Shown here: in pieces, positions 11,780 through 47,550 of the stretch
Numbering within the stretch: the stretch's first letter is position 1
Layout: each line of letters opens with the position of its first letter
Assembly: GCA_023078555.1 (NCBI GenBank)
Contig: CM041200.1
Location: 7,479,361-7,543,360, forward strand
Direction: 5' to 3'
DNA: 64,000 nucleotides
From: Ulva prolifera
Taxonomy: Eukaryota > Chlorophyta > Ulvophyceae > Ulvales > Ulvaceae
Notes under the pieces: model-generated
What the model was told of the DNA's origin: nothing
The model's input: the letters and a program-made list of their open reading frames with translations, nothing else
Databases searched by the model: none
Position numbers and translations under genes: made by a program

Positions 11780-12674
11780 CGCCAGCGGCGGGTGCACCCT
11801 GTCGGCATCGGGCATGACGCAGAGCGTGCCCCATGTGGGGTGCCATCCAGAAGCTTCCCCTGAACACCCAGGCGCGTGATCGCGCGCATGCAACTGCGGA
11901 GGCGCTGGCGGTGATCAAGGTTCCAAGACGAACACGATGGAGGTGCACTCCCCACGCTCCTTATGATGCGGGGCTGTACCACTCCGGCTCCCGAACCCTA
12001 GCCCCGACGCGGCGTTGAGGTGTTTCATCATGCTGTGATACCCGCAGCGTGCCTTACTGGTGGGCGCCTGGTACGACGCTGAAGGGGCGGCCGCCTGGGC
12101 CCCAGCATCCGCACGCCTTCGGATTCCAGGACACAATGTCTGCACGCCATGGACCCCCAGGCCACAGCATGCGCAGCGCGTGTCACGGCTGCACATGGCT
12201 GTTTAGCGAGTGAGCTGTTTTGGGCGGTTGGCGCTTGTTCTGTGTTGTTTGATCCACTGTGCGTTGGCCCCGGGCTGCCGGGGTGTTGGTAGTCCTCGGA
12301 TGTTTTGGGCTGGAGATGCTGTGCAGACTGGCCTCCCGGCACGCTACACCCATCTATGCCACGGGCTGCTTTCCCTGGCTGTGTAAGTTACGCAGTGCCA
12401 CGCAAGAGGCTTGGGTCTGCATGGCAAGACATACCCTGTGGGACCCTCACACGGCTGCCGGCGAGACAGGCGAGAGGCTTGCCAGAGCGGAATCAGCAGC
12501 ATTGCCTGAGCCTGATACACTGTGACGCTTGCGGCATGGGGCTGCCTTGAGTGTGCATGCAGTCTGTTCATGTGTGTTGCTCCTACGAGCCTCACTCCTG
12601 CACGTGGTCGTCAGTCGGTCAATGCAGGGCATTTCATGCCCTGTGAATGAGAAGCGCCGAAGTGCAGTGTCACT
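11780..12674. other. Noncoding, downstream of the 312-aa gene
   Basis: I see no gene. The first few hundred bases are probably the 3' untranslated region of the upstream gene. A TGTAA occurs near 12382, about 600 nt past the stop, and could be its poly(A) signal. Confidence 0.4.
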
Positions 12675-12722
12675 TGTTTCGGTCACACTCGGCTGGACTG
12701 TTTCGGTCACACTCGGCTGGAC
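12675..12722. repeat. 24-bp tandem duplication
   Basis: Two perfect adjacent copies of a 24-bp unit beginning TGTTTCGGTCACACTCGG. It precedes the 79-bp minisatellite by about 50 bp but does not share its sequence. Confidence 0.9.
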
Positions 12723-12772
12723 ATGGCCGGTACCACTGCTGTAATAAAGGCCCTGCAGGGTATGGTGGCATT

Positions 12773-13571
12773 GCACCGTGTCGATGCATGGAAACTGTGC
12801 CTTGACGTGGGTATGGTGCCGCCATGCTCTGCAGGTAATGCTGGCGGCGTGAGCACATGTCGATGCATGGAAACAGTGCCTTGACGTGGGTATGGTGCCG
12901 CCATGCTCTGCAGGTAATGCTGGCGGCGTGAGCACATGTCGATGCATGGAAACAGTGCCTTGACGTGGGTATGGTGCCGCCATGCTCTGCAGGTAATGCT
13001 GGCGGCGTGAGCACATGTCGATGCATGGAAACAGTGCCTTGACGTGGGTATGGTGCCGCCATGCTCTGCAGGTAATGCTGGCGGCGTGAGCACATGTCGA
13101 TGCATGGAAACAGTGCCTTGACGTGGGTATGGTGCCGCCATGCTCTGCAGGTAATGCTGGCGGCGTGAGCACATGTCGATGCATGGAAACAGTGCCTTGA
13201 CGTGGGTATGGTGCCGCCATGCTCTGCAGGTAATGCTGGCGGCGTGAGCACATGTCGATGCATGGAAACAGTGCCTTGACGTGGGTATGGTGCCGCCATG
13301 CTCTGCAGGTAATGCTGGCGGCGTGAGCACATGTCGATGCATGGAAACAGTGCCTTGACGTGGGTATGGTGCCGCCATGCTCTGCAGGTAATGCTGGCGG
13401 CGTGAGCACATGTCGATGCATGGAAACAGTGCCTTGACGTGGGTATGGTGCCGCCATGCTCTGCAGGTAATGCTGGCGGCGTGAGCACATGTCGATGCAT
13501 GGAAACAGTGCCTTGACGTGGGTATGGTGCCGCCATGCTCTGCAGGTAATGCTGGCGGCGTGAGCACATGC
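12773..13571. repeat. 79-bp minisatellite, about ten copies
   Basis: The marker AGCACATG recurs exactly every 79 bases from 12852 to 13563, giving about ten units. Apart from the first unit, which differs near its start, copies are almost identical, pointing to recent expansion or homogenisation. Each unit holds the inverted pair GCCGCCA and TGGCGGC separated by 17 bases, so each could fold into a hairpin, and each carries TGCATG. Because 79 is not a multiple of three, long stop-free frames run through all minus-strand phases; these are by-products of the repeat, not genes. Confidence 0.95.
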
Positions 13572-14083
13572 ACCATTTAGTAGTGCCATGTCACACGGCC
13601 CATGTGTTGTGCATGCATGCATGCGCACCAGGCCAGCTCGCGCGTGGCGTAAGGCCTTACACGTAGTAGCCCTGGGAACACTCATGCACAACGTCACCGT
13701 GGTCGCCACACTAGGCATTCCTGTCCGATTGCTTTGAACTCCCCGTCCAGCAGACCACCTTGCAAATGATACCGGCGAGGACGCAGTGGCACATTTATTT
13801 TGGGCAGGTGTATACCGGCATCGACGATCAGAAAGATTGGGGACTGTGCCTGCATTTGACTTGCTGCTGTGGCTGATCACAGCTCCGCGCATCTTCAGGT
13901 GGCAGCTGCTATACCTGGCCATGGCGGAGCGATACATGATTGCCTCACTGATCGTCGACTATGTTCTTACGCGAGCACACTGTAGAGGCCAGTATAAGGG
14001 AAGGGTAAGAAACATATTATACTTCGACCTTCTGCAGCGATGCTATGTACATGCATTATTCAGTCCGTGACTTCGAGAGAGCC
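13572..14083. other. Noncoding; one unassigned 94-codon frame
   Basis: The start is a TGCATGCATGC palindromic tract (13611-13624). A 94-codon plus-strand frame at 13786-14070 has hydrophobic stretches (LLLWLITAP, MIASLIVDYVL) but no recognised motif and no splice context, so I do not call it a gene. Confidence 0.35.
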
Positions 14084-21483: not shown

Positions 21484-24400
21484 TCAGGTGGGCGTGCTTG
21501 CCGTCGGCCGCGTGAGGCGGCGGCACGTGGCGGCAAACGCGGCGACCGACATGCGCCGCTCCGGGTCGCGCTCCAACAGCCGCAGCACAGCGCCATGCAG
21601 CGCGGGCAGCGGCGCCACGCCGGGGCCGCCCCCCTCTGTCTGCGGCTCCCACGGGAGGGCCTCGTGGCCGAGCAGCTGCCGCATCATCTGCACAGCACGC
21701 AGCACGCGTCACGCTCCTGCCAGCCCCGCGGCTGCGGAGCCCATGAGGCGCCGGAGGCCATGCAGCCCAGGGGCCTGGGCTTGAACTTATCTGGGGGTTC
21801 GGGGAGTGGCGGCCGTCGCACAGGCACCGAGATACCGATGGTATCACACCACGATGCCTGAGATCCAAAGCGGCGGCTGCCTGAGAGACGATGCTGCGCT
21901 GCGTGTTGATGTGTCAGGGGTCATTGTGATGAAAAATGGTTAAGACCCACTGACTCTTCCATGACGTGTCTGGGATGCAACTGCAGAGGCTCGGGGATTA
22001 AGCAGAATGTCAGGGGGGCGCCGCGAGCTGGCACAGCGACATACCTGGTTGACACCCTCCTCAGCCGGTGTAAACAGCGGCTGGCCAGAGAGCAGCTCGT
22101 GCGCGAGCACCCCGAGCGCCCACGCGTCGTGCGCCTCCGCCGCGGGCGCCTCCGTCTCCCCGGACGCGTACGCGCGCGCCACCTCCGGCGGGGCGTACGG
22201 CAGCCGCAGCTGCAGCGGCGCGGCGGCAGCGGTCGCGGCGGACGCGTGGAAGTCGACGACCATCCACCGCCGGCGCCGTGGCAGCCACAGCACGTTGGCG
22301 GGCTTGACCGCGCGGTGCACAAAGCCGGCGGCATGCATGTCCGCGAGGCGCGCGGCGACGGCGGAGAGGATCTGCGACAGGGGGAACCCTGTCAGCTCGC
22401 TGCAGGGGGCAGTGCTGCGCAGTGCTGTGGAAGTGCGGAGATGACCCGGCATCGCCACAGTGCTGAATCTAGGGATTCGACCCCAGGTTCATGGGTGGGT
22501 GGGCTTGACGTGCGGGTGACAGCAACCTATTGCAAATCACGCTTGCGCGATCCGTTAAACAGGGCGTTGGCCGAACAACAAGTTGTTGATGACCAAACGG
22601 CATGGCGGTGAGTGAAGCGCATGCCCAGGAAGATATAAACAATGTGAGCTTGTCATGGAAGGCGACAGGCATGGGAGTTGCCAACAACAGATTGCCTGGC
22701 CTGATGCGTTGTGCGCGCAAACTTGAGGCGTGGAGACACTCCAGGCCGTTCCCCTCTCAAGTGACGCACACACTGCTCAGACACAACTTTAGTTGTTGTC
22801 AGCAGCGCAGATTAGCTTCATGGATGCACCGCATCGGCAGTAGGCTGCGAGACTGCTCTCGTGTGTCAGCCTTCGACACAAATGCTTCTGATATTTTTTT
22901 CTTTCTTGGAACCCCACACGGCAACCCGAGCCACACAAGACGGCAACTCGAGCCACACAAGTTCGAGCCATTGCATGGCAGAACGCCAAGCCAGACATTA
23001 ATTGACAAGCATTGCCTGCGGCTGTAGATGCACGAAAAAGACCGGTGCCGAGGGGCCGCTTGGGGGATCCCGGGATGCTAGACATCAAAGCTGGAAACAG
23101 CGGCCGTGTATGACCGCAGGATCCTGCGTGGTGCCGCACCATGCAGCACTGCGCCGTGCGCGCGTCCCCCCGCAGCTCCGTCCGCGCCGCCCAGTCCTGC
23201 AGGCTCTCCCCGCGTTCCAGCGCGACGCACGGCGGCAGCGCGTGGCGCGGCACGCCGTCGACCCGCACGGCCGTCGTGCGGCTCGCACGCACCGCGCCCA
23301 CCCGCGGCACGAACCGCACGAGCGCCGCCTGCGCGTCGCGGCCCTGCTGCTGCAGCACGCGCATGTACATCGCGGCCTCGGCGGCAAAGTCGGCGTCGCG
23401 CGCGAAGAACTTGATCGCGACCGCGGCGCGCGCGTCGACGTCCTCCGCGAACTGCACCACTGCCTGGCCTGCACGGCAGCTCACGCCACGTCGGCGTCGG
23501 AGCGGCGAACAAACGCGTGCAGGTCGCTTCATCGGTGAGGCGCTGGGTTCGGTGTCAAGGAGGGCGTGTGGCTGCGTTCCCCCAAAAGTAGCCCAGGAGT
23601 GGACACACGTACGCCCGCGCAGCCTAGCGGCGTGTCCTGAAGGGTGCCGCAGCGTGTGCATGCATGCGGTGTGTCCACGGGGCCGTGTGCACAGGGACAG
23701 CGGACAATGGCGCCCGCAGCGGAAACAGAAAACGAAAAGCAACAACTGACCTGACGCGTTGGGGTGCTCCTCACCCCCACACGAGCGCATTGCACAGCCG
23801 GGCCAGGTGGAGGCGGGGTTTTTTTTTTAATGCTGGCCGCTGCGAAACACAGAACAAGGGGGAGGTCGGCGCACCTCCGAAGCGGCGCTCGTGGCGGCCC
23901 AGCATCTGGTATCGGCCGCACAGGAGCACGCCCGACGGCACGCTGTCCAGCGCAGCGCACACAGCACGCAGCGCAGCCGTGGCGGGCATGTCGGCGCCTG
24001 TGCTCTGCGGCGCCGCAGGCAAGGCGCCCCCCGGGAACTCGCCGGACACGACCGCCGGGCCCTCCCGCGGCCTGCTCGGCGCAAGAGGGTCGTCCTCGCT
24101 GGCGCGTGTAGCGTCGCGTAGCCGGGGGGACGGGATTGCAGTGGGCGTGCTATCGCGCCTGAGTGGCTCGGACTTTGGCCCGTCTACGCGGCGAGCACCT
24201 GGGCGGCCGATGCGGGAGTTTGCCCCCACGCGGGCCTCTCCGACTGCGCGCCCGGGGCTGCCCGGCCCGGCCCATCGGCGCTGTATCTTTGCGGTGGAGT
24301 GTAGGACCTGCGCGCTGTGGGGTCGCGACAATGCGGAGAGTCCGCGTGGGGGGCTGAGCTCGAGGGAGTCTGAGCTGGATGGCCGATGTGGTATTGCCGA

Positions 24401-27400
24401 CGCGGCAGGGCGAGCGGCGGAGCGGCCATTGCGGATGGCACCGTCTCCAGCTCCACGGCCAGTCTGCGCGATTGGGGTGGCCGTGCGCCCGCGGGTGGCT
24501 GTGGCCAGGCGCTGCCCCCCACTTCTACCGGCACTTTCCAGCACGGCAATGGCGCCTCGGGGGTCAGGGGGGGTTGGGTCCGGGTGGGCGTGGCCGGCCG
24601 CTGCGGCGAGCACGGTGTCCGCGCCGGTGTCCAGCGTCTCGGTCGCCCAGGCCTGCAGTGACGCTGGCTCCGGGCCGGCGGCTGCGTGCAGCTGACCCAT
24701 GTCCAGCTCCGCCGGGATTGGCAAAACGGCGGCGTCGCTGCGCGGCCCCGCCGCGAGGTCAGGCGCGGCCCGGCCGCCGCCGGCCGGCGGCGCCGGCGCG
24801 GCGCTTCGCGGCTCCGCCGCGACGGAGCCGTGGCTGCTGACGCTGCAGACGCCGCCGCTGCGCACCGACTCGAGCTGCTGCGACGACGTTCGTGACGGCG
24901 GCCACCGCGGCGGCGGCGGTGAATGCGGCGTCCCCGGGCCCCCCGCAGCCCGCCCGGCGGTCGGCTGTGCGCACGACGGCGATGCGGGGCTGCAGGCGCT
25001 TGTGCGCGCGATGTGTGCGCTGGCCGTGGACCGCTCCACCTCGGCTGTTGCCTCCCCGAGCATCGCCGCGATGTCCGCCTCGAGCAGCCGCTGAGTCACC
25101 CCAGGCGTTGACGGCACCGAAAACGCGCTTGCGGAGAGCTGCACTGCACTGGCCATGCCGCCTGCGCCCCCGGCCCGCATGCCACCGCCCCGCCCCTCGA
25201 GATCCGGGGACTGTGCGGGCGCCGGCGGTGACAGGGGTGCACTCCCTCGAGCGAAGGAGTCCCCTGCGCCCATCGTCGACATCGCGCCGTCACCGCCGCG
25301 GCCCTCTGCGACAACCTGCGGCAGGGTGCACCCTGTGAGGTCCGTTCGGCCAGAGTCCGCATCGTCCCCCCGCTCGGAGCCGCGCAGTGGCACGCCATCC
25401 ACATCCAGCCCCACCCTTGGGCTCATGACGTCTTCACAGCGCTCCCCCGCTGGCGGATGCGACGGATCCGCCGCTGTGGCACTAACGGCTCGCGTGGAGC
25501 CGCCTACGGACCCCGACCCATCGCGCTGGCGCCAGCTGCCGTGAAACCCTGAAGCCACTGACGATTCACCACCATGCGGGAGGCTCGATGCCTCCGACGC
25601 AAAGTACGCGGACGTTGCCAGGCTCATCTCCGAGTCCACACTGACATCCCCCCGCGGCAGCAGATCCCGCTGTGCCTCTTGGCTGTGTAGAAACCCGGCA
25701 CGAGGCTTCGCGGCAGCCCCGCCTCCCCCCTGTACCCCGCCCCTCCCTCCATGCCGCCCCCGCGGCGGCGGCCACATCAGCGCCTGCGTGCCCGGCGCAC
25801 GCGGCGCGCGCAGCGCGCCCAGCGCGGCGCCGAGCGATGCCGCCGGCATCGCCACGCTGCTGGCCACCGTCGACGCGATTGCACCGCTGCTGCCCGCGCT
25901 GCTGCCGGCGCTCCCGGCAGCCCCCGCCCCTGGCAGTAACCCCCGCTTCGGCGACGTCTGCGACAGCGTCCCCAGCGCCGCAGACCCCTCGATGTGTCCA
26001 GACGCCTCTGCGATATATCCCGAGTCGCTGCCGAGCCGCTCCGACTCGCCGAGCACCGGCTCGAGGATCGCCGGCAACCCTGACGTCACCCAGGGGAACC
26101 CCGGCGTCATGTGCACGCCGAGGCCGAGCGCCTCTGCCTCGTGCGCAGCCGCCGCAGCCGCGGCGGCCGCGAGCTCCCCGCGAGCCCCCGCAGAGCCCCC
26201 TGCCGGCGTCGGCGTGCCGTCCACCACCCCGGAGTCGCTCCCGACCGGCTCCTCGCGGGGGCTCTCCAGCAGCGCGGACTCCCCGGCGACATACCCTGAG
26301 TCGCCGTCATGCGCATGCGTGCGCGCCGTCGCAAGGCCAATTGTCGGCGCCGCGAGCGGCATACTGACACTGCTCCCGCCATGCATGGAGTCGCCGAAGG
26401 CGGAGCCGGCTCCGGGGATGCTGCTCCACGCGCTGCGCGATTCCCCGGACAACCGCGACTCCCCCGTGCCGCTCTCACATGACACAAAACTCACCCCCTC
26501 CTCATCTGGTTCCACCCCCGCATCCCGGTCGAGCTGCCAACCCGCGTTTTGCAAAACGGCGCCGTGTGGCCACGGGTGCGCAGGGACTGCCGAGGCCACA
26601 GGTGACCGCACCGGGGAGCCCCGGCCGTATGGCGACCCCGGCCGCAGCGGGGACCCGCCAATGGCAGCCGGATATGCGATGGCTACAGGTGCGATGTGAC
26701 CCGGTGCCATAGGGTTTGCAGAAGCCATCGGCGACGCGATCTGCACGGCTTCGAGCATCTGCATCGGAGACCCGTGCGGGGAGAACTGGAACGACTCCTC
26801 CGGAGCAAGAGAGTCCCCCGAACTGTCAGACCGCGGCGTGGCCGGCGCAAACCCTGGCACAGCCGCCGCCCGCAACGCCGCGCTGTCAGCTGCGGGTGCC
26901 GCGGGCACCGCCACGGGCTTGCGCGGCACGACCCCGGACCAGTCGCTGACCGTCTGGTCCGCCGCGGCGGCCGCGAGCTCTGACGTGGAACCCTGAAGCG
27001 CAAACGTGCCAGTGGAGGAGCTCTGGGGGCTGAGGTCGCGACCAGTGGGGATGCGGCACGCGGGCGGGCCGCCCGCGACGCGCTGCGGCTCAATCTCCCC
27101 TCGCTGCGGCTCTGCACGTGCGGTGTCGCACGTGATGAAAGAGGCTCCGTCGCTGAAGATCGGGGAACGGAGGGGGCCAGGGATCCAGGAGCCATCCGCC
27201 GGAGGCATGGCCTCAGGGGCGCCGAGAGCGAGTATCGGGACGGCCGGGATGTGGAAGTCTGGGCCGGAGGACGGCCGCGGGATGGCGCTCGAGTTGCTGA
27301 AGGACACGCTCGAGCTGTCGTGGCGGCTGTCCGGAGGCGGCACGAGGTGGCCGAGCGACGCGACGACGTCCAGCCGCTCCTCGGCTAGGGGTGCTGCGGC

Positions 27401-30400
27401 GGCTGCAGCCTCAGAGAGGCTCGCGGCGGGGCCGCGGCCGCCGGATGCCGGCCCGCGCGGCCACCCGTTGATGGCAGGTGTGTCTGGGCCCATCAGCCCG
27501 GAGCTTGCACTGTGGGAGATCGCCTGCGAGCGGCTGTGCAGGGTGCGGGTGCCGGCGTGGGAGACGACCTCGGCGGTGGAATCGCACGGTGACGACGGTG
27601 CCGCCGCGGCGGCCCCGCCGGCGGCGGCTGCCGCTGCCGCTGCGGAGGCAGCGGCTGCGTCCGGCAGCGCGAGCGACGCGCTGCACTCCTCCGCCACCGC
27701 CGCAGCCCCCGCCGCGGCAGCCGCGGCAGCGGCCTCCGCCGCCACGGGGCTGACGTCGCTCACACCGGACGTCGCGGTGCGCCAACTCGCGTCCGTCGCG
27801 AGGCCGCCGGCGGCCTCTGCCGCGGCGTACTCCGCGCTGGCCATGCCGGCCGCCGCCGCGGCGTCGGTAGGGGGCGAGAGGATGTCGTAGTAGTCCGACG
27901 GCTGTGGGCTGACAGCGGGGGAGGTGGGGGGCTGTGAGAGGGCAGTGGAGAAGACGTCCTTGCCGGTGTGGCCCGCGGATGCGGTGGACATCGTGCTCGC
28001 GCCGCCTTTGTACGAGGGGTCCTCCCTATCAGAACCGGCCATCGACCGCATGCCCTCCTCGATGTCGTTCTGCACAGACATGCAGCCTGTTGCCACCGTG
28101 ACCCCCTCATGCATGCACCAAAAATGACCTCCCGGACGAACTCATCACAGCACACGCGCGCACAGCACAGCACAGCACTCGTCTCGGCAGCGGCTGCTTG
28201 GCTCGTCCGCCCCGCGTCTCATGAGGGGCGGTGCCATAGCTGCGAACATCTGTGCATGACCGCAAACTACACTCACCACCGTCCAGTCACATGTCCGCCT
28301 CTGTCCACGTGACATCACCAGCAGCATGCCCAACCGGGGCAGCTAGCCCTGGAACGGAAGCGTTCCGGCGCATGTGCGCGTCCGCACCTTGTGCACCCGG
28401 GGCTCCTCCCTGTTCGCGGCACGCCTTTTCGCGCCACAGAGCACAAAGACGGCCGCGACGGCCGCCAGGACCGTCACAAACCCGACGACGAGGGCCACGG
28501 TGCCCGGGACGCCGATGGAGGTGCCGCGGGGCCCCCCGCGCGGCGGCTGCAGGCCGGGGCGGCTGCCGACGGCCGCCCCGGCCACGACGCCGGACGCGGC
28601 AGGCCCCCCCAGGTCCTCTGGGGCGGAGAAGTCCGGAAGCGCCTGTACACTCGACTGTGTTGTGGCGCAGTGACAAATGAATGCCATTAAAGCAAAGAAT
28701 TCAAGCGAATGTGAAGCGCGGTCAAGTACATCCAGATTTACGGACCCAGTGTTGGTGCACAGCGCCTGAGGGGGTAAACACCGGCAGCACATGACCAAAC
28801 GCTGGTCAACATGCCGGATCCAAGAAGCGTTGCATCCCGGTTCAAAGTTTTCACAGGCACGTTTGCGCCGTCCGTGACGGAAGGGCAGGAAAACAAGAGG
28901 CCCCTGCCCACCCTTCTGTTCAGAGCAGGACAGCGCAGGTCAGAGCAGCAGAGACTCACCTCCCGAAGCGCAAGCAGCCAGGGGTCCTGCGGCGACAGGA
29001 ACGGCACGGCCTCTACCTCCTCCACCTCCGCGAGCTGCCGGCTCCCGCCCACCCCCGCCTGATCCGCCGCCCACCCACGGTCCCGCCCCGCCGCACTGCT
29101 CGCGCCCGCAATCACATCCGCAGCCGCCGCATCGACATCCTCCCCGCCCGGCGCGCCGAACGGGTAATCATCATCAAACAGCGCGTCTTCGATGACGTAA
29201 TCGTAATCCGCATCCGCCGCCGCGCGGGTGACGATGGCGCCGCCCGCGGGTCCGACAGCCGTGGCCGGGTCGGCGGACTCGGGCACCTCGGCACCGGTGT
29301 CGTCGGTGGCGTAGGTGACGTCGTCGAAATAGGCAGTGCCGGCGAGCGCGTCCTCGTCGGCCGCGGCAGCGGTGCCGGCGGCGGTCGTGTTTACGAGGGT
29401 GACGTGTCGCCAGCGCGCCGCGGACGCGAAGGAGGCGTCGACGAGGGCTTGCCGGCTGATGTGCGTGTGGCGGAAGGCGGACTGGGTGAGGAGGGCCGAG
29501 CTGCGGTCGAAGAGGAGGATGGGGGAACGGCTGCCTATTATGTGGGAGAACACGCAGTCTGCAGCAGCAGTCGATCGAATGAGAGACGCAGCCGGCGGCA
29601 GCGGCCGTTGCACGAACACACGCAGACGGCTCAGCATTCGTTTCATCAAGACACGAAGTCTGCAGCAGCAGCCATAAAAGGAAGAAGTCGTATACTTTAC
29701 GAGCCAGGGTGCTTTTGGTTGCATATGTGGTCAACGTGCTCAGTCAACTACTGTTGGGGTCACTTGAACTCTGGGGTACCTCTGAGGGACACCCCACAAG
29801 CCAGCTCTGTGGACCGTCCCCAAGACGTATCCCAAAACTCAGACGACGGACACTCTGGGTGAACACTGGTGCAGTGTTGGGGACTGGGACTGGCATGCTG
29901 GCATGCTGCGGGACTGGCATGCTCATGCTGCGTTGACTTTCTGTAGCATGGCTGGTGTGATGCCCGTAGGTGGCCTTCATGGCCAACCTTGCAGGATGAG
30001 AGAATAAATGAGTAAACAAGGCCAAGCCTGAGAGGCATACAATGTATGCACCATTAAGTATGCAGGCTGCACAATCCGGGAGTGTTCACTGTTGTATGTG
30101 ATGAGATCTTGATGCTGATGAGAAGTCTCGGTGAACCTGAGCCAGTATGGAGCTTGTTCACGTGGTCTCATGCGTGGCAGGCTGCTGCTCTCTGCGAGGA
30201 CATCTCAGCAACAGACAAGCAACAGGCTGCATGGTCTGCAGGTGAGCTCATGGAGACAGGCGCCCCTGCAGCAAGGGCTGTGGTCCATGGTCCAGCGCTG
30301 GTATCTACAGGGATACCTGCACCCATGCACATGGCCATGCAGGGCTGACAGAAGTTACCTAAGATGTGCACATGCATGGCAGGAGGTGGCAACAGAAAGC

Positions 30401-33400
30401 AGGCCTGGCACTGCAACTGACTGAAACCAGGTCTGGGGCAGAAGGCCGATGAGTTCCACCAGGCCACACATTTGCTTGTGTGCCATGCATGGCACTGGAT
30501 GCATGTGGCAGTGAAGCCCCCAAAGGTGAGGTACAAACTAGGGCCATCAAGGAAGCCAGGCCTCCACAGCAGTTTCCGGTGTGGCCTCCACAGCAGTTTC
30601 AAAAGTGTGCAGGGAGATTGTCTGCATTGAATACATATCTGCATTGACATCAAGTGCGGGGGTACTCCAGCCTCTAAGTTGTAATGTGTGTTTTTTTGTT
30701 AGTTTTGATAAAGCTTTTTTTTGAGTAAGTTGCTCTGCGTCAGGCAACAGCTGTAGTGGGGTGTTGCATGTTCATGCTGTGTGCCTGTCCCTCTGATCTG
30801 CTGCAATCTGGCTAGCCGCACTGCTGCACCGTGTCGCCGGCCTGTGTCCAGGCACCATGCAGCAATTGCAATTGCGTTAACGCAAGTAATAGCAACACAG
30901 TTGTCTAATGTGCCGTTCATGCATGCTGTACACACCTTGCAGCATCACCGCAGACGCCTGCCACACCCGCAGCGGCTGGATCTGCGGCGTGCTCGGCCCT
31001 GAGAACGTCGTGTTCGTGAGGTACACCGCTCGCCCGCCCGGCCTGCCGCTCTCGGTGGGGGTGTTGATGTCCCACACCGCCAAGCCCGGCGGCTCCTCCA
31101 GCACCGCGCCGCCTTCTGGCACCCTCCACAGCATGGCGACGTTGTCCACCCACAGCCTCTTGGAGAACACGCGGAAGGCGGAGCGCTGTGCCGAAACGAT
31201 GCATTGGCGTGGCTTCAGGGGGTCCTTGGGCTTGCCACCGGCAAAGGTGGCTGGAGGGGGCTGCGCGCAGTTCCCCTGCATGCACATAGCGCTAACGCCG
31301 GCGTTCGGGCAGCTGCGGCCTGATCATGGAACCTGTATGCACTGACATGACACCTTCGATACATCTTTGGATCGCGGTATGCGTTCTACGGTGCAAGACT
31401 GGCTCTCGAGATCTCGTAAACAGCTCGGGTGTGTCGATGTGTTCCGCCGAGCGTACCCTGCTACCATCGATGATACCGTATTCTTAATGACATGCCGCAA
31501 CCAATGCATGAATATCATGCATGGGCATGATATGACGTGTACCTCCGAGGCTACGCCGCGAGGCGACGTGCCGCGACGCAACAGAGCGGAGGCTGCATGC
31601 ATGCATGGGGCTGGCAAGGCACCCAGACTTGGCGAAAGGAGCATTTCGCTGTGCGATCTGCGGATTACCTCATTCGGGACTTTGGCGCGTGCATGCCAGC
31701 CTGCCTCGCCACCTGTTGATTCAAATTTTGGAGGGCAGCATGTGGCGCAGCGCTGGCAATGCCTCATCCGGGTCTATGGCTAAGATCAACGACCACTTGC
31801 AGCAGGCGTGTGGAAGCATGGCTAAAGCGGCAACAGGCATGACGTGATGCAGGTCAGCAGCGACGTGAGCAGCGATCAGTCGACTGTGTGACGTCTACGG
31901 CGCGCAGGAACACACCGGCGCTTTCCCACACAAGGCGCACACCCGAGGCACTGCTGTGACATAACCCCGTGCAACTTGCAACGCCTCGGCCGAGGTGACC
32001 GTTGCCCGCATGCACCAGTTTCAGCAGCGCAGCCCCCGCATGCGGCTAGCCGACGGCGTGCAACCCCGCCACATGACTGCTGCGACGGCACATGCACGAG
32101 CCGTGCTGTCACTTTATGCGCTACGTCCGGCGGTGATGACGGTGAGAGCACGTGACGGGGGCGTGCGTGTAGATCAGGCGACTCCACTTACTGGGTGTGA
32201 CTCAACCTGACTAAACGCGCTCAGTCAATCTCGCGGCGGTGGCCAACAGCACGGCCTGGGCCCCTGCTGCCGCGGTGCCCGTCAGACGCGGGACCTGCGC
32301 CCCGCCGTGGTCCGGGTCGAACTCGACGGAATGCGAACAGGCGCCGTGTTCCCAGCGAGGACTCGCCGGGCAAGGCCGGAGACATCGCCGCGAGGCACGG
32401 GAACAGCACGCCCGCCACTCCTTCGCATCACAAGCGCTGTTGCGGCCCGGAAGCTGCCAAGATGTGCATGCGTTGCCGTCCTGGCCATCGTCACATGACC
32501 CGGTGCCGCTATAATGAGCGCGCAACCGTTATTCCGCGCACTTGCGTGCGGCCCGCGAGAACATCCCCAGTAATGCTGTGAGTGACAGACTCTGAAGACA
32601 TCGTGGAGATGTCAGGCACAGTGAGCGGCGGGCACAGAGCTCGTGCAGGGAATAACATGCATCACGGCAAGGACAGGCACGCACGACTGCCACATCCAAA
32701 TCATGCGACCGCACAGCGTATGCATGAACACGACACAACTGCAAAAGCATGAACCAGAAGCTCCATGACGGTGTAGTCAGAGCGCCTCTGCAGTGCGTGT
32801 GCGTACGAGCTTACAGGCTGCTACCTTCAGCTGCCGTGTGGCGCAGCTGCAGAAGGCTGGCCCGACGTGACTCACGACCCCACGTAGCCACAGCCATAGC
32901 AATCGGCTGGTACAGAGCTGAAGCGCATCATGGTGACAGACAGCATGGCTGTGTGGCTGTGGCCGGCGCGAGTGCTGGCGGTGCGTGGGTGTGTTGGTGT
33001 GTGATGCGTGTGGCTTGTTGCGTGGTTCCCCTGGTTGGTGCTCGCGGTGCTACCTGCCTTGCTTGCTTTGTCCTTGTAACACACATAGCATGGCATAGCC
33101 CGGTTCTATTGCTGAGCCTGCGAGTGGAGCCAGTGAGTGCCTGTGAGCAGTACACGCACACATGTGCAAACAGAGTGCATCAGCCTGACGCACATGGGCT
33201 CTACATAGGTTGCCACAGCACAGGACCGCCCGTCACTGCCCCTGTCCTTGACACACCACACTCCTCAATGTGACAAGCAATGTGGAACAATGTAGCACAG
33301 CATCACTGCAGTGCATTTGAACATGGTAGCCTGTGTCTCCACGGAAGGTGCAGCCTCTCCAGAGCGGAGGTCCAGTCTGCTTTGTCCAGGCTGCTCTGAC

Positions 33401-35777
33401 GAACAAGCAGGGGAACACTCATGCACACTGGTCAACTACACTGCATGGGCAGAGACCGCAGTACGTAGTGTGAATGTGGTCCACATTGTCCTTGCTGCAC
33501 TAGATCGGTCTGTACGGACAGAGACAGGGAGAGGGACAGCGACCATTCACAGTGCGAGCCACGGCCAGTGACGCACCCTGCCCAGACCGCCGGCACCTCG
33601 TCTGTCTGTCTCGTGCAGCTGGCGACCCCCTGGCCATACAGGTATGTGGCAATCCAGTGATATGGCCACTACACCACTGGACCCTTGCACGTCGCGGGCC
33701 CACTGTACCACGCACGAGGACACTGGATAGAAACGACACTATAGAATCGGTGGACTACTTGCCTGCGTGCGGCAACACCCTGACGTCACTGCTGCTGCTT
33801 GCAGCACTGCAATGACCCCACCACCGCCACAGTCGGCCCTGGCAGGAGCAGTACATGCGAGTGAGTAGTTGAGTCTTTTGGGCGGCGACACCGCCGAGCT
33901 GCATGAGACAGACCGACGAGGTGCCGGCCTGGCATGCATGTGGGGCTGCCACCGACCTCCCATCTGAGGTACAGGCACTGCTGAATCAATAGACCTATCA
34001 ACAGACGTATCACAGCCACATCATCAGTTCTGGATTCCATCCACACGACACACGGAAGCCCGGCAGCAGCTGGATTGTGCAGCAAAACTCATTGAGGATA
34101 GACCACACTGCCGCAGGCTCCAGGCTCCCTGTACAACCCAATCTAGCGGGCCAGAGGGCGGGTTGACCGCCTGATCTCGCTGCTGGGAAGGATGACACAG
34201 ACAGCATTTCAAAACTCCTCAAGCGCAAAACCCACCAATACAGAGACCTCATACGTAGAAGACGGACCTGGCAGTTGTGACACAGGCACGGCCCCACTCG
34301 GGCTGTGCCGCCCGCACACACGAGGGCATCTCCGCCAGCAAGCAGCTGAGGCCCGCCCCAACGCTGCGATGGCAGGTGACTGCAAAATGGAGGCCTCCCG
34401 GGATGCATGGAGGCCTCCGCGGCAGCACCTGCGTTGTGCTGCACGGGGCAGCGCCTACACCCTCGGCCTGGCTCCAAACGCTCACGGCGTCACACCGCAC
34501 AGACATCCCATGGCATGCATGTCGTTACAAAGGACAGTGGTCGGGCATCGAGCCGTGCCTCGGAATCCACTCGCACACCCACTCACTCATTCAGGGCACG
34601 AGCACGTACCTCAGCCCTGCCGGTGATTCCAGCCAAAGATTGAAGCCCCGCACGGAGCACAATAGCGTTCCGTTTGCACACCGCCACACTCAACGGGCGC
34701 AGCGCATTCGTCACAAACAAACCGCGGTTCACAACACCACACCGAGACGCAACCTCCGCCAGCACCCATGTGTGTATGCATGATCACATAGCCGGAGCAG
34801 CCGTACACATGAGGACGTGGGAGCACGCTGTGTAGAGTTCAGTCTCGTCGCCCCCCTCACCTGCGGCGGCGCGGATGACGGGTGCGACAGCGTGAGCCGC
34901 TCCTCACAGACTGTCCCAACCCAGGCCGCACAAGGGCTGCGCTGTGTGGCAGCCTTGTCGCGGCGTGCGAGCGTCCAGTGGTGCAGCTGCCGTATCACAG
35001 CCACTGCGTATCTACTGCCCACAGCCACTGCGTATCTACTGCCCACAGACACTGCATATCTACTGCCGAGTGTGTACATAGATCGAGCTACTCGCATGCG
35101 TATGTATCTCAATGCTGCTGCTCGGCCCCACTGCCGGCGTGAGTGGACGTGGCCTCGAGCGGCAGGGCTGGCGGAGACGGCAGCTGGGTGGATGCGGGTT
35201 CGGCAGGCGGTTCCAGGGGTGGGGTGCACTGGCCGGATGGACCGCGGACGCGAGACGACTGTCACCCCCGGCACACGGGATCGCATGGTGTGAGGAGACT
35301 GCAGGCCGAGGCGGGCGTCCGTGATGTCTCTGAGAGACACAAGCGGCAGGTAGAGAGCGGTGGCGCACCCGGAGGGACCGCGTCTCGTGGTGCACGATAG
35401 CAAACACGAGCCTCGCCTGCGCCGCGCTGTTGTCAAACATGCCCTGCCGGGCCACGGGGATGGGCACGGCGGGTACATCCTCCAGGTCGAGGTGCGCCCG
35501 GATCTCGATGTCTCGAGCGCCCGAGAGAAGCGCAGCCTGCAGCTCCGCTGCCGTGCTGACCACTGTGATGTCCCGAGGGAGAATAGGTGGTTCAAGCGGG
35601 CGTGCACGCTTGGGCGTTGGGGACACAGTGCCACTCTGATCGCCGTAGGTGATCTCCGATAGCGTGCGTGTTCCAACTGCAGTGCTGCTGTCTACGAGGG
35701 TAGCGCTGCTCGAGGGTCCGTGTGAGGTGGACTTGACTGAATCAAGTTGCAGAGCTGGGCCCTCGTCCATCGAAAAC
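21484..35777 (-). CDS. Receptor-like beta-helix/transmembrane protein with C-terminal probable pseudokinase
   Basis: Exons, all in phase: 35369-35777, 30936-31275, 28960-29558, 28388-28642, 23875-28069, 23140-23468, 22045-22371, 21484-21687, about 2,215 aa from the ATG at 35767. Order: VVSTAAELQAALLSGARDIE opening typical of algal right-handed beta-helix ectodomains; repeating short strands (VYLTNTTFSGPS, VMLQDCVFSHI); Asp/Ala-rich stalk; one membrane span near residues 493-516 with a stop-transfer GAKRR; a Ser/Gly/Ala/Pro linker of about 1,390 residues; kinase fold. The kinase keeps the family loop RRFGGQAVVQFAED, the VAIK lysine, an alpha-C Glu, APPE and DAWALGV, but has HRAVKPAN for HRDxKPxN and DFH for DFG, so catalysis is doubtful. 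Chlorophyte relatives normally have HRDIKPxNVLW and DFG. A signal peptide is missing from the rebuilt protein; an upstream exon is likely (candidate near 36.1 kb). The first intron is 4.1 kb. Confidence 0.85.
33645..33693 (+). repeat. Dispersed 49-bp hairpin repeat, copy 1
   Basis: Contains the inverted pair TCCAGTG...CACTGGA around GATATGGCC, followed by CCCTTGCACG. A near-identical copy lies at 43456-43504 and a diverged reverse copy near 34963-35000. It lies in the first intron of the receptor gene. Possibly the end of an undescribed short transposon; no partner end was seen. Confidence 0.6.
34963..35000 (-). repeat. Dispersed hairpin repeat, diverged copy
   Basis: On the minus strand this reads TGTGATACGGCAGCTGCACC followed by ACTGGACGCTCGCACG, matching the copies at 33645 and 43456 with several substitutions. 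It also lies in the receptor gene's first intron, next to a 24-bp tandem array. Confidence 0.5.
34996..35067. repeat. 24-bp tandem repeat, three copies
   Basis: Three adjacent 24-bp units beginning CACAGCCACTGCGTATCTAC; the third has two substitutions. Located in the first intron of the receptor gene. Confidence 0.9.
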
Positions 35778-38700
35778 CTGCATGGTCGCAGGTCAAAGGT
35801 TATGGCAGCGCGATTGCTTGTTGTTGGGAGTGCCGTGGATGCAGCATGGCCAAGTTCGGCTCTACACACGCGGCTCAGATGAGTAAGCTGTGTTCGTAGC
35901 CAGTGTGTGAAGTACGCGTAGATATGCGTGAGAAAGCCATGTCTGCAGGCAGAGAACATAGGCTTCGGCGGCAAGAACGGTGTAACTGCAAGGCAAGCAG
36001 GACGATCGCTAGGTATCGTAGATAGCAGGTATCCGCGAGATGATTGCGTTCGCCGACTGCACGAGGACGCATCGTCGCCTGCGCAACGTCCCAGGCAACA
36101 GCAATAACAACAGCAGCATGCAGCATGGATATGCTAAATGTGGCATGCACTTCAATGCTGACTTTGAGCTCGCGTCAAGGCTGTCGAAGCTATCAAACTG
36201 GCGCAGGTCCAATGCCGTGCTGTCGCGGTTGACAAGAGCTCGTGAAAAGCTGACAATACTCCAGTAGATGGAAACGTGCACAGCCATGCCTTCTATTCAT
36301 ACATCTTTGTGGTCGCCTTGGTCTCTTCCCAGGACGCAGGCGCCAGGGCCCTTGGTTGAACGTGTTACTGGCCGCTAAATCCTTGGCTGTGTCATGACGC
36401 GCCCTTCGTGTACAGAATTGTTGCTCGCAGCTTTTAGATTGAAAGCAAAATCGCCGCGTCCCGTTGAACAGTCGCTGGGACTTTCGGGTTGGCCATGCAG
36501 CACGATTTCATACAAGACGACCGCGTGTGAAGGGGTCAGTACACAGGCCTAAACGTAAACCCAGAAGAGAGACCAGAGTGCATATAAATAGTCTTCAGGT
36601 CAAGAAAATGGCATATCATGTCGCCATGCGTTGAGGTTGAGCCCTCAAAGTCATGGTGCACCAGAACGAGCGTGATGACCCACTCAGCTGCAGCTGGCAA
36701 CACTCCATGGTACCACAATAGCATGTCCGAAGCATAATGCGATGATGGAGAGATGGCAGAGTTTAGAGTCGCGCACGTGATGTCGCGGCGGACACAAGTG
36801 TGTTAATTTGATCAGCACGACGAGCTATCCATTGCGCTGCCACGCGTCAAGGCACGAGCATGCAGCGCATCGAGCACTTCAGCGTCAATAATAAACATTT
36901 CCAGGATGTGGTTTGACTGGCGCGCATGCCGCCAGCAAGCAGGCAATACACCGCTTGGAACGCACCCGCAGCGGTCCGGAGACCAAGCCTTGGCCTAAGC
37001 TGACGTACTCAGTTGAGGCACCAAGTCTTTAATCATCAGTGATATGCACGTCTTCCTCTGCGGTGACTCGGTGCGAAGGTACTGGTGCGCCATACAGCGA
37101 GTCAGAGAGCTCTGTGCCATCACACGCGCTGAACGTTTCCAGCATATACCCACGCAAACTTTCCACACTAGCCGTGAAATATATCAAAAAGATGGATTGC
37201 CATACGAGCGCTGGATCAATGCAGGAATTTGTACACAGAGAGCTGCCGATGTCTTCCGCGAAGTCAATACACCAAATAGGCATCCAGGCAGAGCAGGCCT
37301 TTTCCTCCAGCACGTATGCCTCGAACTGTGAGCTGTAATCTGCAGACTACCGGCCAGCGCCGATCAAAAGCTTCACCGCGCGCGTTGACCCCGCGCGAAC
37401 ACAGCAACAACCGCATGCGTATGCATGCACCGTCGCATTCCAACTGGAGGCAAGTTTCATCCCGTGCGCAGCACATTTCTCCTCGGAGCCTATCTCTCAA
37501 ACCCAGTGTGCAGGTCTGCTACGCTTTCCGTGTGTACAACTTGTCCAGTTCTCTTCATAGTATGACTAGATACCGATCGCATCTGCCAGCAGGTATCAAT
37601 CGGCGAGCGCTGAGACGCGCCCAATCCCAGCAGCTGAAATGAATCTTGTGCACGCAGCTTACGCACATCCACTTTGCCGCAGCAAGTCTTTGTTTGGGCT
37701 GTGCATGCAGGAAAGGCGCCCAAATGTGCTCACTGCGCTGCGCGGCCTTCGACGCAACGAAATGCGTTGACTACGGAAGATGACTCTTGTTTCCAATGAT
37801 ACGGACGCCGAAAGCAGTCTCATGCAGCAACACACAGCAGTGGGCAACCGCACAAGGATTGGATACGGGTATGCGTTCCTGGTTTGTGGTGTAGACCCCG
37901 CCCGGCAAATATCAATACACGGGCGTTTCTCTCCACACATTCCGGTATTCGCTCGGCCCGTGCTCAGAAATCTTTCGCACGCCTTGAAACGTGTCGCACG
38001 GGGCGTGGAGGATGCAGATGTGCAAGGTTCCGCCTCAACCAAGATCGGGCGTTTGTCAGCTCTGACTGCGTGGGTGATTAAGGCAACGGCCTCCGATTGC
38101 GTAACAATATCGGTTATTGCCTGCCCCGTGTCGACGCCGCATACAGCATGCCGCATGCCGGGGGGCGGTCGTCGCACATGCATTTCGCACATGCATTTGC
38201 AGTTTGCCGCACGTGACCACACATAACCATGCATAGCGCCGAATCCGTCGAGCAAAGTCTCTTCGTGGCGCATGCAAGTACGCATTCATGTACATGCCAT
38301 GTCCATCGTCGACAGTTCCCCCGATATCTCGCGCGCCTTTGCCCTCAGATCGCCGGATCGCCGGAACGAATCCCTCATCAGCACCGTGACGTCTCTTACA
38401 CTGGCGCACAATGGCGTACGACGGGCCGATGCCTGCTGCAACCTATGTCCGTACAGCTCTGTTGATGTCAGGTGTACGTAACTACGTTTGTGTGAGCAAT
38501 CCTGTGGCGTTCTACGTGAACGGGCGGCCAGAGCTCGCGAGCGCACACGTTAAATCATTCCATGATGTGCGTAGCGCGGCCGACGTGCGCTTTTGGATTG
38601 ACGTGCGGGGCCTGGGCCCATCTGGGACCACATGCATCCACATGCATGTGCACCCTAGGGCCTGTTGACATCGATCGAGACCGCGAGCCCCTCGCAGCGC

Positions 38701-40594: not shown

Positions 40595-42472
40595 CTACTC
40601 CCTGCGTTCCCCATTCGCCACTCGGGCCTGCTCTGCCGCAAGCGCGCGTGCGCCTCCACCCACGCTGCCCTCCTGGCCACCCCCCTGTAGCAGACCAGCC
40701 GTCGCCGCCGCAACCACAGCCACCCCACCCGCCTGTGGCCCCACCTCAGCTGGCCCTTCTGGCACGGAAGCGTCAGACGAGGTCGCGTCGGGGTGTGGCC
40801 GCATGCATCGCGTCCATGCATTTGGCGACAGCACCCGCTTGCCCCGACTGAACCTGCGGAGGTGTTCCGGCGGCACAGGGCCCCCTGTCGGACTGGTGGC
40901 AGGGGGGTGTGCAGCCGCGGCATGCGCTTCCGCAGGCACCGCGGCATCGGACATATGCTGCAGCGGCTGCGAATGCCCCCCTCCCAGCTCCCCGGCACTC
41001 GGCGGGTGCTCGCCGTCGCCAACCCTAATTGACCCGGAACACCTGGAGTGTGTGTCCAGAGGCGCGGCGGTGATCTCGGGCACCCGGATCGGTTCGGAGC
41101 CGCCGTGTGCATGGCCGTTGGCGTATGCTCGTGCCGACTGCGCGGCCATGCGCGACTCCGCGGCACGCCTGATCCGGTCCCGGACGGTCGTCGGCAGCGG
41201 CTTGCCAGCCTCCGGCGGCCCAACACCAGCCTCCACCCCCGACGGGGATGAAGGGTCCCTTGTAGACACGTCCCCATCGCCCGGGCCGCCGCAGCCTGGG
41301 GCCCGCCGCTTGCCGCGCCCGGCCGGCCGGCAGTCGCGTACCGTGCTGCCGCGCCTGTGGACACCCTCATCGCTCTCCCACACAAGCTCCGAGCTGTCTG
41401 CCAAGCCGCGGCATGCGCGGATGGGCGCGGAGGCCTGCTGGCGCCTGCTACTCTCGCCCCGCCGCAGCGGCGACGTCGCACGGTCAAACAGACCCTGCCG
41501 CATGGACACATGCTTGGTGTTCGCCAGACGGCTGTACTCCTTCCGTGGCCCCGTGAATGAGGGCCTTGGCTGGGGCTTGAGTGGAGAATTTGGCGCCGCG
41601 GCCGCGTGAACCGCGCCAGCTCCGGGCGTGAGCGACCGGGAGCGGACGGTCGCGCTAGCGTGAACTGCGCGGCGCGTGCGCGTGAGCACCTGAGTCGAGC
41701 GGCCGCCGCTGCTGCGTGTCGTGGGGGTTGTCGGGCCTGCGCCGCTGTCTATGGAGGGTCCGCGCGTCCCTGCGGGAGCGGCGGACGGTGACGCCGCGGC
41801 GTCGGTACCCGGTAGTGGGGAGGGCGGGGTGTCGACCGGGGGCTCAGACGCGCCGCGTCGGCGCGTGCGGTTCTGCACCTGAGCAGTCCAGTCCAAGCGG
41901 GACGGTACACCGGAGGGAGTCCAGACGGGCCGGGGCTTCAGGCCGGGCAGGGCTGCAGGCGGCCTGAGGCTCGGCGATGCATGCGGCCCCTGTGGCGGTG
42001 CTGCCATGGGCGAGTGTGCCTTGGCCGGGGACTGCGTGCGACTGTGCGCCTTGACCGCATGCAGCGGCTGCGCCGCCGCCGCACGCTTCAGCGGCGGCGT
42101 GGCGGCGGGGGCCGCCGCATCCACCACCGGTAACGGCGGCCCCGGCGGCGGCGGTGTCGCCGCCGCGGCGCCCGCGGCGCGCGCTGCGCGCGACAGCGGT
42201 GTCAACGGCGTCAGCGCGCGGTCGTGCGCCTGCAGGCGCTCGGCCGACAGCTTGACCCGGCCCGGGCTGCCGCCGCCGGCGGCAGCGCCGCCGGCCGGCG
42301 GCCCGGACTCGGGCCGGTCGTCGATGTCCGGCGGCGGCCAGGTGCCGCTGTCGGACGGCGCAGACATCTCCCAGGGGTGGGAGGAGGACGGCGAGATGGA
42401 GGCGTCTGAGCCACTGATATCAGCTGCAGAGGACACGGACGACGCCGGCGGCGCGGACGGGTTGGCCTCCTT
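40595..42472 (-). CDS. Disordered Ser/Pro/Arg-rich exon, probable tail of receptor-like relative
   Basis: A 625-codon open frame from an acceptor CGACCCAG at 42473-42475 to the stop at 40595. Composition is Ala/Pro/Ser/Gly/Arg-rich with many SP and TP sites, basic patches and no hydrophobic segment, so an intracellular disordered region is likely. It follows, on the same strand and in the same phase (0), the membrane exon ending at 47551, so I join them tentatively across a 5-kb intron. Codon bias and lack of stops over 1.9 kb support coding status, though high GC also favours open frames. I found no kinase domain downstream, unlike the gene at 21484-35777. It could instead be an independent gene. 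The true 3' end may be a splice donor before 40595. Confidence 0.5.
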   Translation of the reverse strand, partial: KEANPSAPPASSVSSAADISGSDASISPSSSHPWEMSAPSDSGTWPPPDIDDRPESGPPAGGAAAGGGSPGRVKLSAERLQAHDRALTPLTPLSRAARAAGAAAATPPPPGPPLPVVDAAAPAATPPLKRAAAAQPLHAVKAHSRTQSPAKAHSPMAAPPQGPHASPSLRPPAALPGLKPRPVWTPSGVPSRLDWTAQVQNRTRRRGASEPPVDTPPSPLPGTDAAASPSAAPAGTRGPSIDSGAGPTTPTTRSSGGRSTQVLTRTRRAVHASATVRSRSLTPGAGAVHAAAAPNSPLKPQPRPSFTGPRKEYSRLANTKHVSMRQGLFDRATSPLRRGESSRRQQASAPIRACRGLADSSELVWESDEGVHRRGSTVRDCRPAGRGKRRAPGCGGPGDGDVSTRDPSSPSGVEAGVGPPEAGKPLPTTVRDRIRRAAESRMAAQSARAYANGHAHGGSEPIRVPEITAAPLDTHSRCSGSIRVGDGEHPPSAGELGGGHSQPLQHMSDAAVPAEAHAAAAHPPATSPTGGPVPPEHLRRFSRGKRVLSPNAWTRCMRPHPDATSSDASVPEGPAEVGPQAGGVAVVAAATAGLLQGGGQEGSVGGGARALAAEQARVANGERRE

Positions 42473-43455
42473 CTGGGTCGCCAGGAGGTGTATGGGGTGG
42501 CTTGGGGAGTGGCAGTCGGTGTGGCGGTAGAGGTGGCGACCCTTGGGCTCCAGGGTTGCGGTCCTGGAGGCCTTGGTTCTGCCAGTGAGCTCGTCGGTAA
42601 GAGGGTCCTGCACACCACGACCGTGCATGTTGTTCTCAAGCGCGCGCGGCGGGCGTGTTTCGTGGCAGTCAGGCCACGCCGCCCATGTTGGGGGCTGCCG
42701 CTAGCACCAACTACGCCCAAGGTCGTCACACCGGACCCGCGGTCCTGGGCTCATGCTGATGCGGACCGGAGAACAGAGCCGGTGGGGCAGGTGTGTGATC
42801 GATTGGTTGACTTCAAGTTGACGCCAGCAGCAGGTGGAGGGTGCAGCAGTGACGGCGCCGCGGCACAGGCGGAGCGTGGCTTTCATGCCCCAGCTGCAGC
42901 TGTGAGTGAATTGTATCCTGGGGTGACAGGCCACTGAAGCCCCATCGGAGCGCGATGCTATGCTGGATTCACGCAGCCTGCATGACGCAACTGGCGTTTC
43001 TGTGTTGGCGTGCATAAACATCGGTCAGCCTCACGAGAAGCGCCACCTCTGGCCACCTCTGGCACAGACCAGTTGACATACCCAGAGAGCACTGGAGGCA
43101 GCTGCTGTGCTACCCGGACAAAGCAAAGCCAGGGAGGCAGGTAGCACTGCGGGTCACAGCCAGAGGAAACTCGCACCCACGCAACCACCACCACCACCCA
43201 ACACAGATCAACACACCCATGCATGTGCATACTCCACCACCCGCCCAGGCCGAAGCCGGACACACACAGGCCCCGCACCCACAGCCACACCTACTGGAGG
43301 CAGCATGTGCATGTGGTACATGCGATGTGGAGAGGTGCCCCCTGCTTCAGGCCTTCACCAATATAGAAGCCAATGCTTTGAGGATGCAGAAGTCACACTT
43401 GCCAAGATGCAGTGCTCATGTTGGGGTGACGTCATGGTTTAGGGAAGGTGACATT

Positions 43456-47097: not shown

Positions 47098-47550
47098 GTC
47101 TGATGTGCGCGTATCATCGGCCAGAAGAACACCCACGCGCGGCTACAGCACGGCGCTCACGGCGACACGGTGGACAGCCCACAGGCGGCTGTGAAGCAAA
47201 TCGACACACGGGAACACATCGTCCGGGCCCAAGGCCAGCGGCCGCAGAAGCCCTGATTCATTCGCATGGTCAGTCGTGCCGCATTCCACAGACGTGCCTC
47301 TCGCGAGACGCACCCTGCAGAGGACCACACAAACCCTATACCCGCGCAACTAAAAAAAACACAGCGAAACGAACCATGCGGAGCAGCCATGCGCGTAGGC
47401 ACACACGGCGGTGAACCTCGATGCAGATGCACTGCGGTGCACCCTAGCACCCCGCCGACGCAAGTGCACACCGCAACCGCCTCTCTGCTGGACGCCCGAT
47501 GGTCGGGGCGGGGGGCCGGGCAGCTATAGCATGCAGAGCACGGAGCGCAC

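Follow-up and report, generated by a model that had tools for sequence, protein, structure and literature searches.

A giant receptor-like gene of the green alga Ulva prolifera and its probable pseudokinase domain

Can a receptor-like gene that has lost residues central to catalysis be a maintained member of its family, or is it a copy on the way to decay? The question is raised by a minus-strand gene at positions 21484-35777 of a 64,000-nucleotide stretch of Ulva prolifera DNA (C5:7479361-7543360 of the 88.9-Mb genome; hereafter the window, with C1, C2, C4, C5, C7 and C23 denoting contigs of this same genome). The large contigs of this genome carry light-harvesting genes and matches to the Rubisco small subunit, in keeping with a green alga. 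The gene's product joins an ectodomain to a kinase domain through a single membrane span and a long linker. The explanation favoured here, with modest confidence, is a receptor-like pseudokinase with a single membrane pass, belonging to a large family of algal receptor kinases, which would dock or regulate partners rather than phosphorylate them efficiently.

Kinase domain and its lost residues

The kinase domain is recognizable by sequence. The kinase query matched PF00069 (E 3.8e-15; 56.4 bits against a cut-off of 31.7), and its best match among PDB sequences was PknB (E 4.4e-11). PF07714 reached 20.5 bits, under its cut-off of 23.1, leaving PF00069 the far better description by sequence score, a comparison that involves no tree of plant receptor-like kinases (RLKs). 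Direct reading of exons 7 and 8 bears out the landmarks named in the original prediction, namely the VAIK Lys, the alpha-C Glu, HRAVKPAN, DFH and YAPPE (with APPE at the APE-type motif). In place of the HRD Asp stands Ala (codon GCG, 22311-22309; GAC in 68 and GAT in two of the 70 conserved paralogues described below), and in place of the DFG Gly stands His (codon CAC, 22248-22246; GGC in 46, GGG in 17, GGA in five and GGT in two of the same paralogues). Besides the VAIK Lys and alpha-C Glu, the domain retains the catalytic-loop Asn, the DFG Asp, the HRD His, the DFG Phe and a Tyr four residues past the alpha-C Glu. The last three are taken here to be regulatory-spine positions. The general make-up of this spine is described in a portion of PMC4718504, which also defines pseudokinases as proteins with a kinase fold that lack the VAIK Lys, HRD Asp or DFG Asp; the window gene has a protein-kinase fold (PF00069) and lacks the HRD Asp.

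Gene model, linker and ectodomain

The spliced model runs from 35777 to the stop codon at 21484 in eight exons (Table 1), and its seven introns all have GT..AG ends and compatible phases, as had been claimed. With a tentative exon 1 included, the predicted product comprises 2,247 amino acids, with the ectodomain followed by a span at approximately residues 518-551, a linker extending to approximately residue 1947 and the kinase domain from there to the C-terminus. Exon 1 is the least supported part of the model, a plausible candidate for a signal-peptide exon. Exons 2 and 3 join in phase 0 (TRSLR joined to GNC); the intron between them (window 31276-35368; about 4.1 kb) is the longest in the gene. 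Two solutions exist for the exon 7/8 junction, of which the phase-0 one was adopted because its spacing is nearer to that of paralogues with both lobes matched in one frame. The single hydrophobic span has a Kyte-Doolittle maximum of 2.89 over 19 residues, and the linker measures about 1,396 amino acids, counting residues between the span and exon 6; with the kinase domain, these features uphold the receptor-like architecture originally proposed for this strand.

Table 1. Exons of the receptor-like gene (window positions)
Feature	Positions	Strand	Content
Tentative exon 1	35987..36072	-	Start Met and hydrophobic signal-peptide-like stretch CYLRYLAIVLLALQ; donor GTTACA, phase 2
Exon 2	35369..35777	-	N-terminal part of ectodomain VVSTAAELQAALLSGARDIEIRAHLDL...; paralogue matches in own genome
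Exon 3	30936..31275	-	Ectodomain GNCAQPPPATFAGG...; GT..AG ends; paralogue matches
Exon 4	28960..29558	-	Ectodomain DCVFSHIIGSRSPILLFDRSSALLTQSAFRHT...; three paralogue exons align at 31-34% identity
Exon 5	28388..28642	-	Juxtamembrane region and transmembrane span GTVALVVGFVTVLAAVAAVFVLCGAKRR
Exon 6	23875..28069	-	Linker rich in Ala/Ser/Gly/Pro, its end being the first kinase residues GRYQMLGRHERRFG
Exon 7	23140..23468	-	Kinase N-lobe: GQAVVQF loop, VAIK Lys codon 23412-23410, alpha-C Glu
Exon 8	22045..22371	-	Kinase C-lobe: HRAVKPAN, DFH, YAPPE, HDAWALG; PF00069
Exon 9	21484..21687	-	Kinase domain end and stop codon; RDPERRMS region readable

The linker exon contains no stops in 1,398 codons, where 15.1 would be expected under a first-order Markov model (never fewer than 4 in 500 draws), and the remaining five frames each contain 7-20 stops. 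The kinase exons have a G+C content of 0.92-0.96 at third codon positions (GC3) versus 0.52-0.61 at second positions (GC2). Judging from its composition (Ala 19%, Ser 13%, Gly 12%, Pro 11%), the linker is presumably disordered; a Pfam search of its open frame (P0001) gave no match. Long open frames elsewhere in the window, at 12447-13937 (-), 40595-42628 (-) and 47411-48601 (+), matched no Pfam family above cut-off.

The order and strand of ectodomain and kinase recur at many paralogue loci, which argues that both belong to one gene. A query of exons 3-4 gave 34 matches in the own genome (31 on C5), and a same-strand family kinase lay downstream within 10 kb in 30 of them (28 of those 31 C5 matches, including the two rows that belong to the window), compared with a same-strand kinase upstream in 13/34 and an opposite-strand kinase in the downstream direction in 2/34. 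For an N-terminal query (most of exon 2 and the start of exon 3), there were 90 matches, 42 of these on C5, with a same-strand kinase downstream within 10 kb in 41 (32 of 42 on C5) and control values of 20/90 (upstream, same strand) and 3/90 (opposite strand). This recurring order appears to be the best available evidence for one joined gene, and it covers only part of the kinase matches. Within the window gene, the linker frame leads straight into the kinase start GRYQMLGRHERRFGG with matching phases. Ectodomain and kinase lie 7.1 kb apart here, versus 2.8-6.3 kb in the paralogue matches for which such a pair exists (23 of 25).

Among the 49 N-terminal matches without a downstream kinase, 31 are at C4:6.33-6.72 Mb. 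This region (C4:6333751-6715190) thus holds 31/90 matches to the N-terminal part of the ectodomain, has no family kinase within 15 kb among the matches listed and is perhaps a receptor-like cluster without this kinase. Guanylate cyclase was considered as the effector of these ectodomains and gained no support, with three PF00211 matches in the genome and none on C4.

The beta-helix-like fold originally suggested for the ectodomain went unconfirmed. A Pfam search of the ectodomain found no family above cut-off, as did a search with exons 2 and 3 alone, the best match among PDB sequences had an E of 0.52, a four-sequence profile of exon 4 found no PDB match at E <= 10, and a single-sequence structure prediction for an ectodomain piece was uninformative (predicted local distance difference test score, pLDDT, 34.6). 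The prediction for the C-lobe exon was also uninformative (pLDDT 49.6); the order of helices and strands in that model presumably fits a kinase C-lobe.

A large kinase family with recurrent degenerate members

The window gene belongs to a large family in its own genome, sharing with it a homologous kinase domain and a same-strand upstream ectodomain homologous to the family's. The kinase query, matched to the genome exon by exon at E <= 0.01, gave at least 137 matches, three of them the window gene itself, and this count is a lower bound because 132 of 483 candidates were scored. Of the matches listed, 107 represent the kinase C-lobe, three of which lie on C23, possibly a duplicate contig; 94 were read (91 distinct catalytic loops and three duplicates) and 13 were unread. 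The other 30 matches comprise two of the window's own exons, five unread ones that span the catalytic loop, one more that may span part of it, and a remainder outside the loop. Rows L009, L010 and L019 (the window gene, entered once from its own exons) and the near-duplicates L013, L065 and L027 were removed before counting. Forty C-lobes, including that of the window gene, are strung along C5:7.20-8.72 Mb, with others on C7, C1, C2 and elsewhere. C23 (28 kb) and C7:625964-638974 carry three kinase matches each, with equal scores and near-equal spacing; C23 seems to be a haplotig, or else an unplaced duplicate, of this part of C7.

The window C-lobe is 49-57% identical to seven paralogues in alignment, L021 being the nearest (57%). 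Conserved paralogues such as L021, L030 and L043 share its homologous kinase and kinase landmarks, and at many loci the upstream ectodomain; the glycine-loop sequence GQAVVQF is also found in most paralogue rows read. Unlike the window gene, they keep HRD and DFG, and in the 23 measured cases the spacing between ectodomain and kinase is shorter. The family form named in the original prediction holds within this genome: HRD[LIV]KPxN with DFG was seen in 70 of the 91 loops of this genome, all 70 keeping HRD, the catalytic Asn and DFG. The remaining 21 count as degenerate by a broad rule, having lost one or more of the HRD Asp, catalytic Asn, DFG Asp and DFG Gly, and 14/91 do so by a strict one (HRD Asp or DFG Asp lost; the VAIK Lys was read in only some rows). 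The last six rows (L102-L107) were picked for lying in or near suspected degenerate regions, or for being unread on C5, and all six are degenerate; without them, the counts are 15/85 (broad) and 10/85 (strict). The latter is near the proportion of about 10% that the abstract of PMC4718504 gives for pseudokinases in the human kinome.

The combination of HRA and DFH was found in the window gene only, being absent from the other 90 rows read, with 18 loop-spanning matches unread. A clade sharing both lesions, the check proposed for the original prediction, was thus not seen within this genome (0/90 other rows read). When the motif columns are left out of the tree, the degenerate label needs nine changes, of which starred branches force at least seven (8 and 5 in a first tree of 85 rows). 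The changes are read as losses, a reading with limits since counts alone cannot separate gain from loss and long rows make parts of the tree uncertain. No sister of the window row is well supported. A grouping with L097 and L103 (support 90/70) was not relied upon because the placement differs from that in the 85-row tree, where the bootstrap was unsettled, and because it joins long branches. Forcing the window row into the degenerate clade on C7 cost 27.7 log-likelihood units, with a borderline p of 0.054 in the approximately unbiased (AU) test.

Degenerate kinases recur in the family, by their motifs, and form arrays elsewhere in the genome, a feature that the original prediction did not mention. 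All eight matches at C7:635521-725224 (L064, L080, L090, L095 and L104-L107) have the catalytic Asn replaced by His and DFG by DFD, and form a supported clade with L078 (97/86), within which close pairs have ratios of nonsynonymous to synonymous substitution rates (dN/dS) of 0.24-0.36; this array possibly represents a new pocket type. Like the window gene, its members are damaged in the catalytic loop and at the DFG Gly while keeping most fold positions; unlike it, all eight have His at the catalytic Asn and DFD in the DFG motif. All four matches at C5:7880311-7911732 (L079, L089, L093 and L102) have Lys or Ser for the catalytic Asn (KPxK/KPxS) and GFS or SFT for DFG. The HRD Arg is replaced by Gly in L093, L105, L106 and L107, and a change from HRD to HGX is common among pseudokinases according to a section of PMC4718504. 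Outside both arrays, degenerate kinases (L062 at C2:5070500-5075000, L022, L077, L078, L086, L094, L097 and L103) have motifs such as HRN, DFA, DYA, NFC and DLA and come from several parts of the tree.

Maintenance, rival explanations and possible role

Whether the window gene is under constraint was assessed at 35 near-invariant positions (columns at least 97% conserved among the 70 conserved paralogues; 28 non-catalytic and seven catalytic). It keeps 26/28 of the non-catalytic and 5/7 of the catalytic positions, the catalytic losses being the HRD Asp and DFG Gly; the alpha-C Glu, which falls just under the 97% line (52/54 in conserved rows), is also kept. As only 9/47 poorly conserved columns (<50%) equal the consensus, this retention reflects more than mere closeness. 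The other degenerate rows have lost 59/124 catalytic cells and 44/403 non-catalytic cells, with a p of 4e-17 that is only a guide, since these rows are related to one another and were selected for catalytic loss. In seven close pairs of degenerate copies other than the window gene (dS < 0.56), dN/dS is 0.18-0.36, the next pair having 0.84, and the median is 0.49 over 165 degenerate pairs (dS < 1.5) versus 0.33 over 2,144 conserved pairs; these figures cover the C-lobe only, under strong GC3 bias and with non-independent pairs. The higher median, longer branches and low close-pair values together argue that constraint on degenerate copies is weaker than on conserved members, yet present. For the window gene, maintenance is argued from intact frames and splice sites and from high GC3, its C-lobe having 0.92 where conserved paralogues have a median of 0.875 (range 0.62-0.98).

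Several observations weigh against maintenance, and some of them are what would be expected of early decay, in which a member of a birth-and-death cluster has lost its function and the kinase substitutions are neutral. Taken alone, the window row shows no significant contrast between its catalytic and non-catalytic losses (Fisher p 0.17), the residue directly before DFG has changed from Ile (68/70 conserved rows) to Val, and that eight residues past the DFG Asp from Gly (69/70) to Ala. Compared with L021 over the C-lobe, the proportions of synonymous and nonsynonymous differences are 0.47 (pS) and 0.29 (pN), a ratio of about 0.6 that would indicate at most weak constraint, with both branches mixed, and that does not imply absence of constraint either. 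Two trees give the window row a long end branch (1.19 and 0.99 changes per column), end branches are longer in degenerate than in conserved rows (median 0.86 versus 0.21, p 2.8e-4), a pattern also expected under relaxed constraint, and the gene belongs to a large many-copy family, has no close copy among the family rows and falls where the C5 cluster is interrupted, the nearest other family kinase among those listed being about 100 kb away. Simple decay is nevertheless less likely than a maintained receptor pseudokinase and is considered improbable, given 1,398 stop-free linker codons, intact splice sites and phases, GC3 of 0.92-0.96 in the kinase exons and the retention of 26/28 non-catalytic near-invariant residues. 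The original claim of constraint rather than decay therefore stands in part: frames, splice sites, codon bias and retained residues speak for it, and the long branch and the pN/pS ratio against it.

Equally improbable is an active atypical kinase that catalyses without the HRD Asp, as some proteins first termed pseudokinases do. The Lys, Glu, Asn and DFG Asp are all present, and active exceptions appear in the parts of PMC9403797 and PMC4718504 that treat them; against this, the HRD Asp is the catalytic residue and is found in 70/70 conserved rows (which are defined by it), and the DFG Gly is gone too. Still more doubtful is a decoy or sensor, a dead kinase kept as a mimic of the substrate or target of a pathogen, mating or self-recognition partner. 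The decoy concept has been put forward for plant pseudokinases of the ZED1 type, and the repeated, array-wise degenerate copies resemble fast-evolving recognition families; nothing was found that ties this family to immunity or mating, in work that made no search for partner genes or genes like nucleotide-binding leucine-rich repeat receptors (NLRs). An error of the gene model, by which two separate genes, one for a receptor and one for a kinase, were fused, would account for the 7.1-kb distance and the odd composition of the linker exon, and is very improbable in view of the recurring ectodomain-kinase order and strand and the linker frame that enters the kinase start in matching phase. Least credible, to the point of being negligible, is a sequencing or assembly error at both motifs, because each of the two codons is at least two bases away from every codon in the conserved paralogues (GAC/GAT versus GCG; GGN versus CAC), which makes base-calling error very unlikely, and the frames are intact.

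The window gene is real and probably encodes a functional receptor-like pseudokinase; its lesions and linker are unusual. With Ala where the catalytic base, the HRD Asp, should be, efficient phosphorylation would be impossible, and the domain could be fixed in an active-like shape, with nucleotide binding perhaps kept. Such a pseudokinase could assist paralogues that are catalytically competent, either allosterically or as a scaffold, and the long linker may extend its reach or carry docking and phosphorylation sites.

This proposal can be set beside ILK, which is not a membrane receptor, STRAD-alpha, which lacks a membrane span, and CORYNE and BIR2, which are RLK family members of land plants. 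As described in a portion of PMC4718504, ILK has lost the DFG Gly and kept the DFG Asp, like the window gene; the Lys that takes the Gly position touches the phosphates, and absence of the Gly probably fixes the protein in the DFG-in state. By analogy, the window kinase may be able to adopt a closed, possibly nucleotide-occupied, DFG-in conformation. ILK differs in having Ser at the position of Asn171 (PMC4718504, same portion). STRAD-alpha resembles the C7 array in its His at the Asn171 position and altered DFG, binds ATP independently of cations and binds LKB1, according to the same source in part; Asn171 is kept in the window gene. CORYNE and BIR2 have non-catalytic kinase domains that partner active receptor kinases, as is proposed here, whereas an RLK/Pelle placement of the window kinase is not established by its sub-cut-off PF07714 score.

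Table rows of PMC10868138 give one to four RLKs per chlorophyte species, with RLKs present in 9 of the 18 chlorophytes studied, figures that rest on RLK definitions and are not directly comparable with the 107 C-lobes listed here. Literature searches found no title or abstract opening describing this algal kinase family, most subscription papers being outside the searched library; the HRA and DFH lesion and the giant linker appear unusual, in a family that these searches did not turn up. A scan of viral contigs for outside relatives (alignment A1) produced 36 stretches that fitted a pattern, none confirmed as a relative. A more speculative possibility, on which only tentative weight is placed, is a chlorophyte receptor system independent of that of land plants, in which some 100 or more kinases and receptor-like pseudokinases would form mixed complexes, with at least seven kinase-dead origins, dedicated arrays with a His/DFD pocket and perhaps a changed way of handling nucleotide or metal, and with the window gene as a giant-linker singleton hub or co-receptor. 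If true, there would be a largely unread green-algal receptor repertoire, with many kinases behind an ectodomain absent from Pfam. It would also offer a natural experiment in which kinases became pseudokinases many times within one family (10/85 rows by the strict rule).

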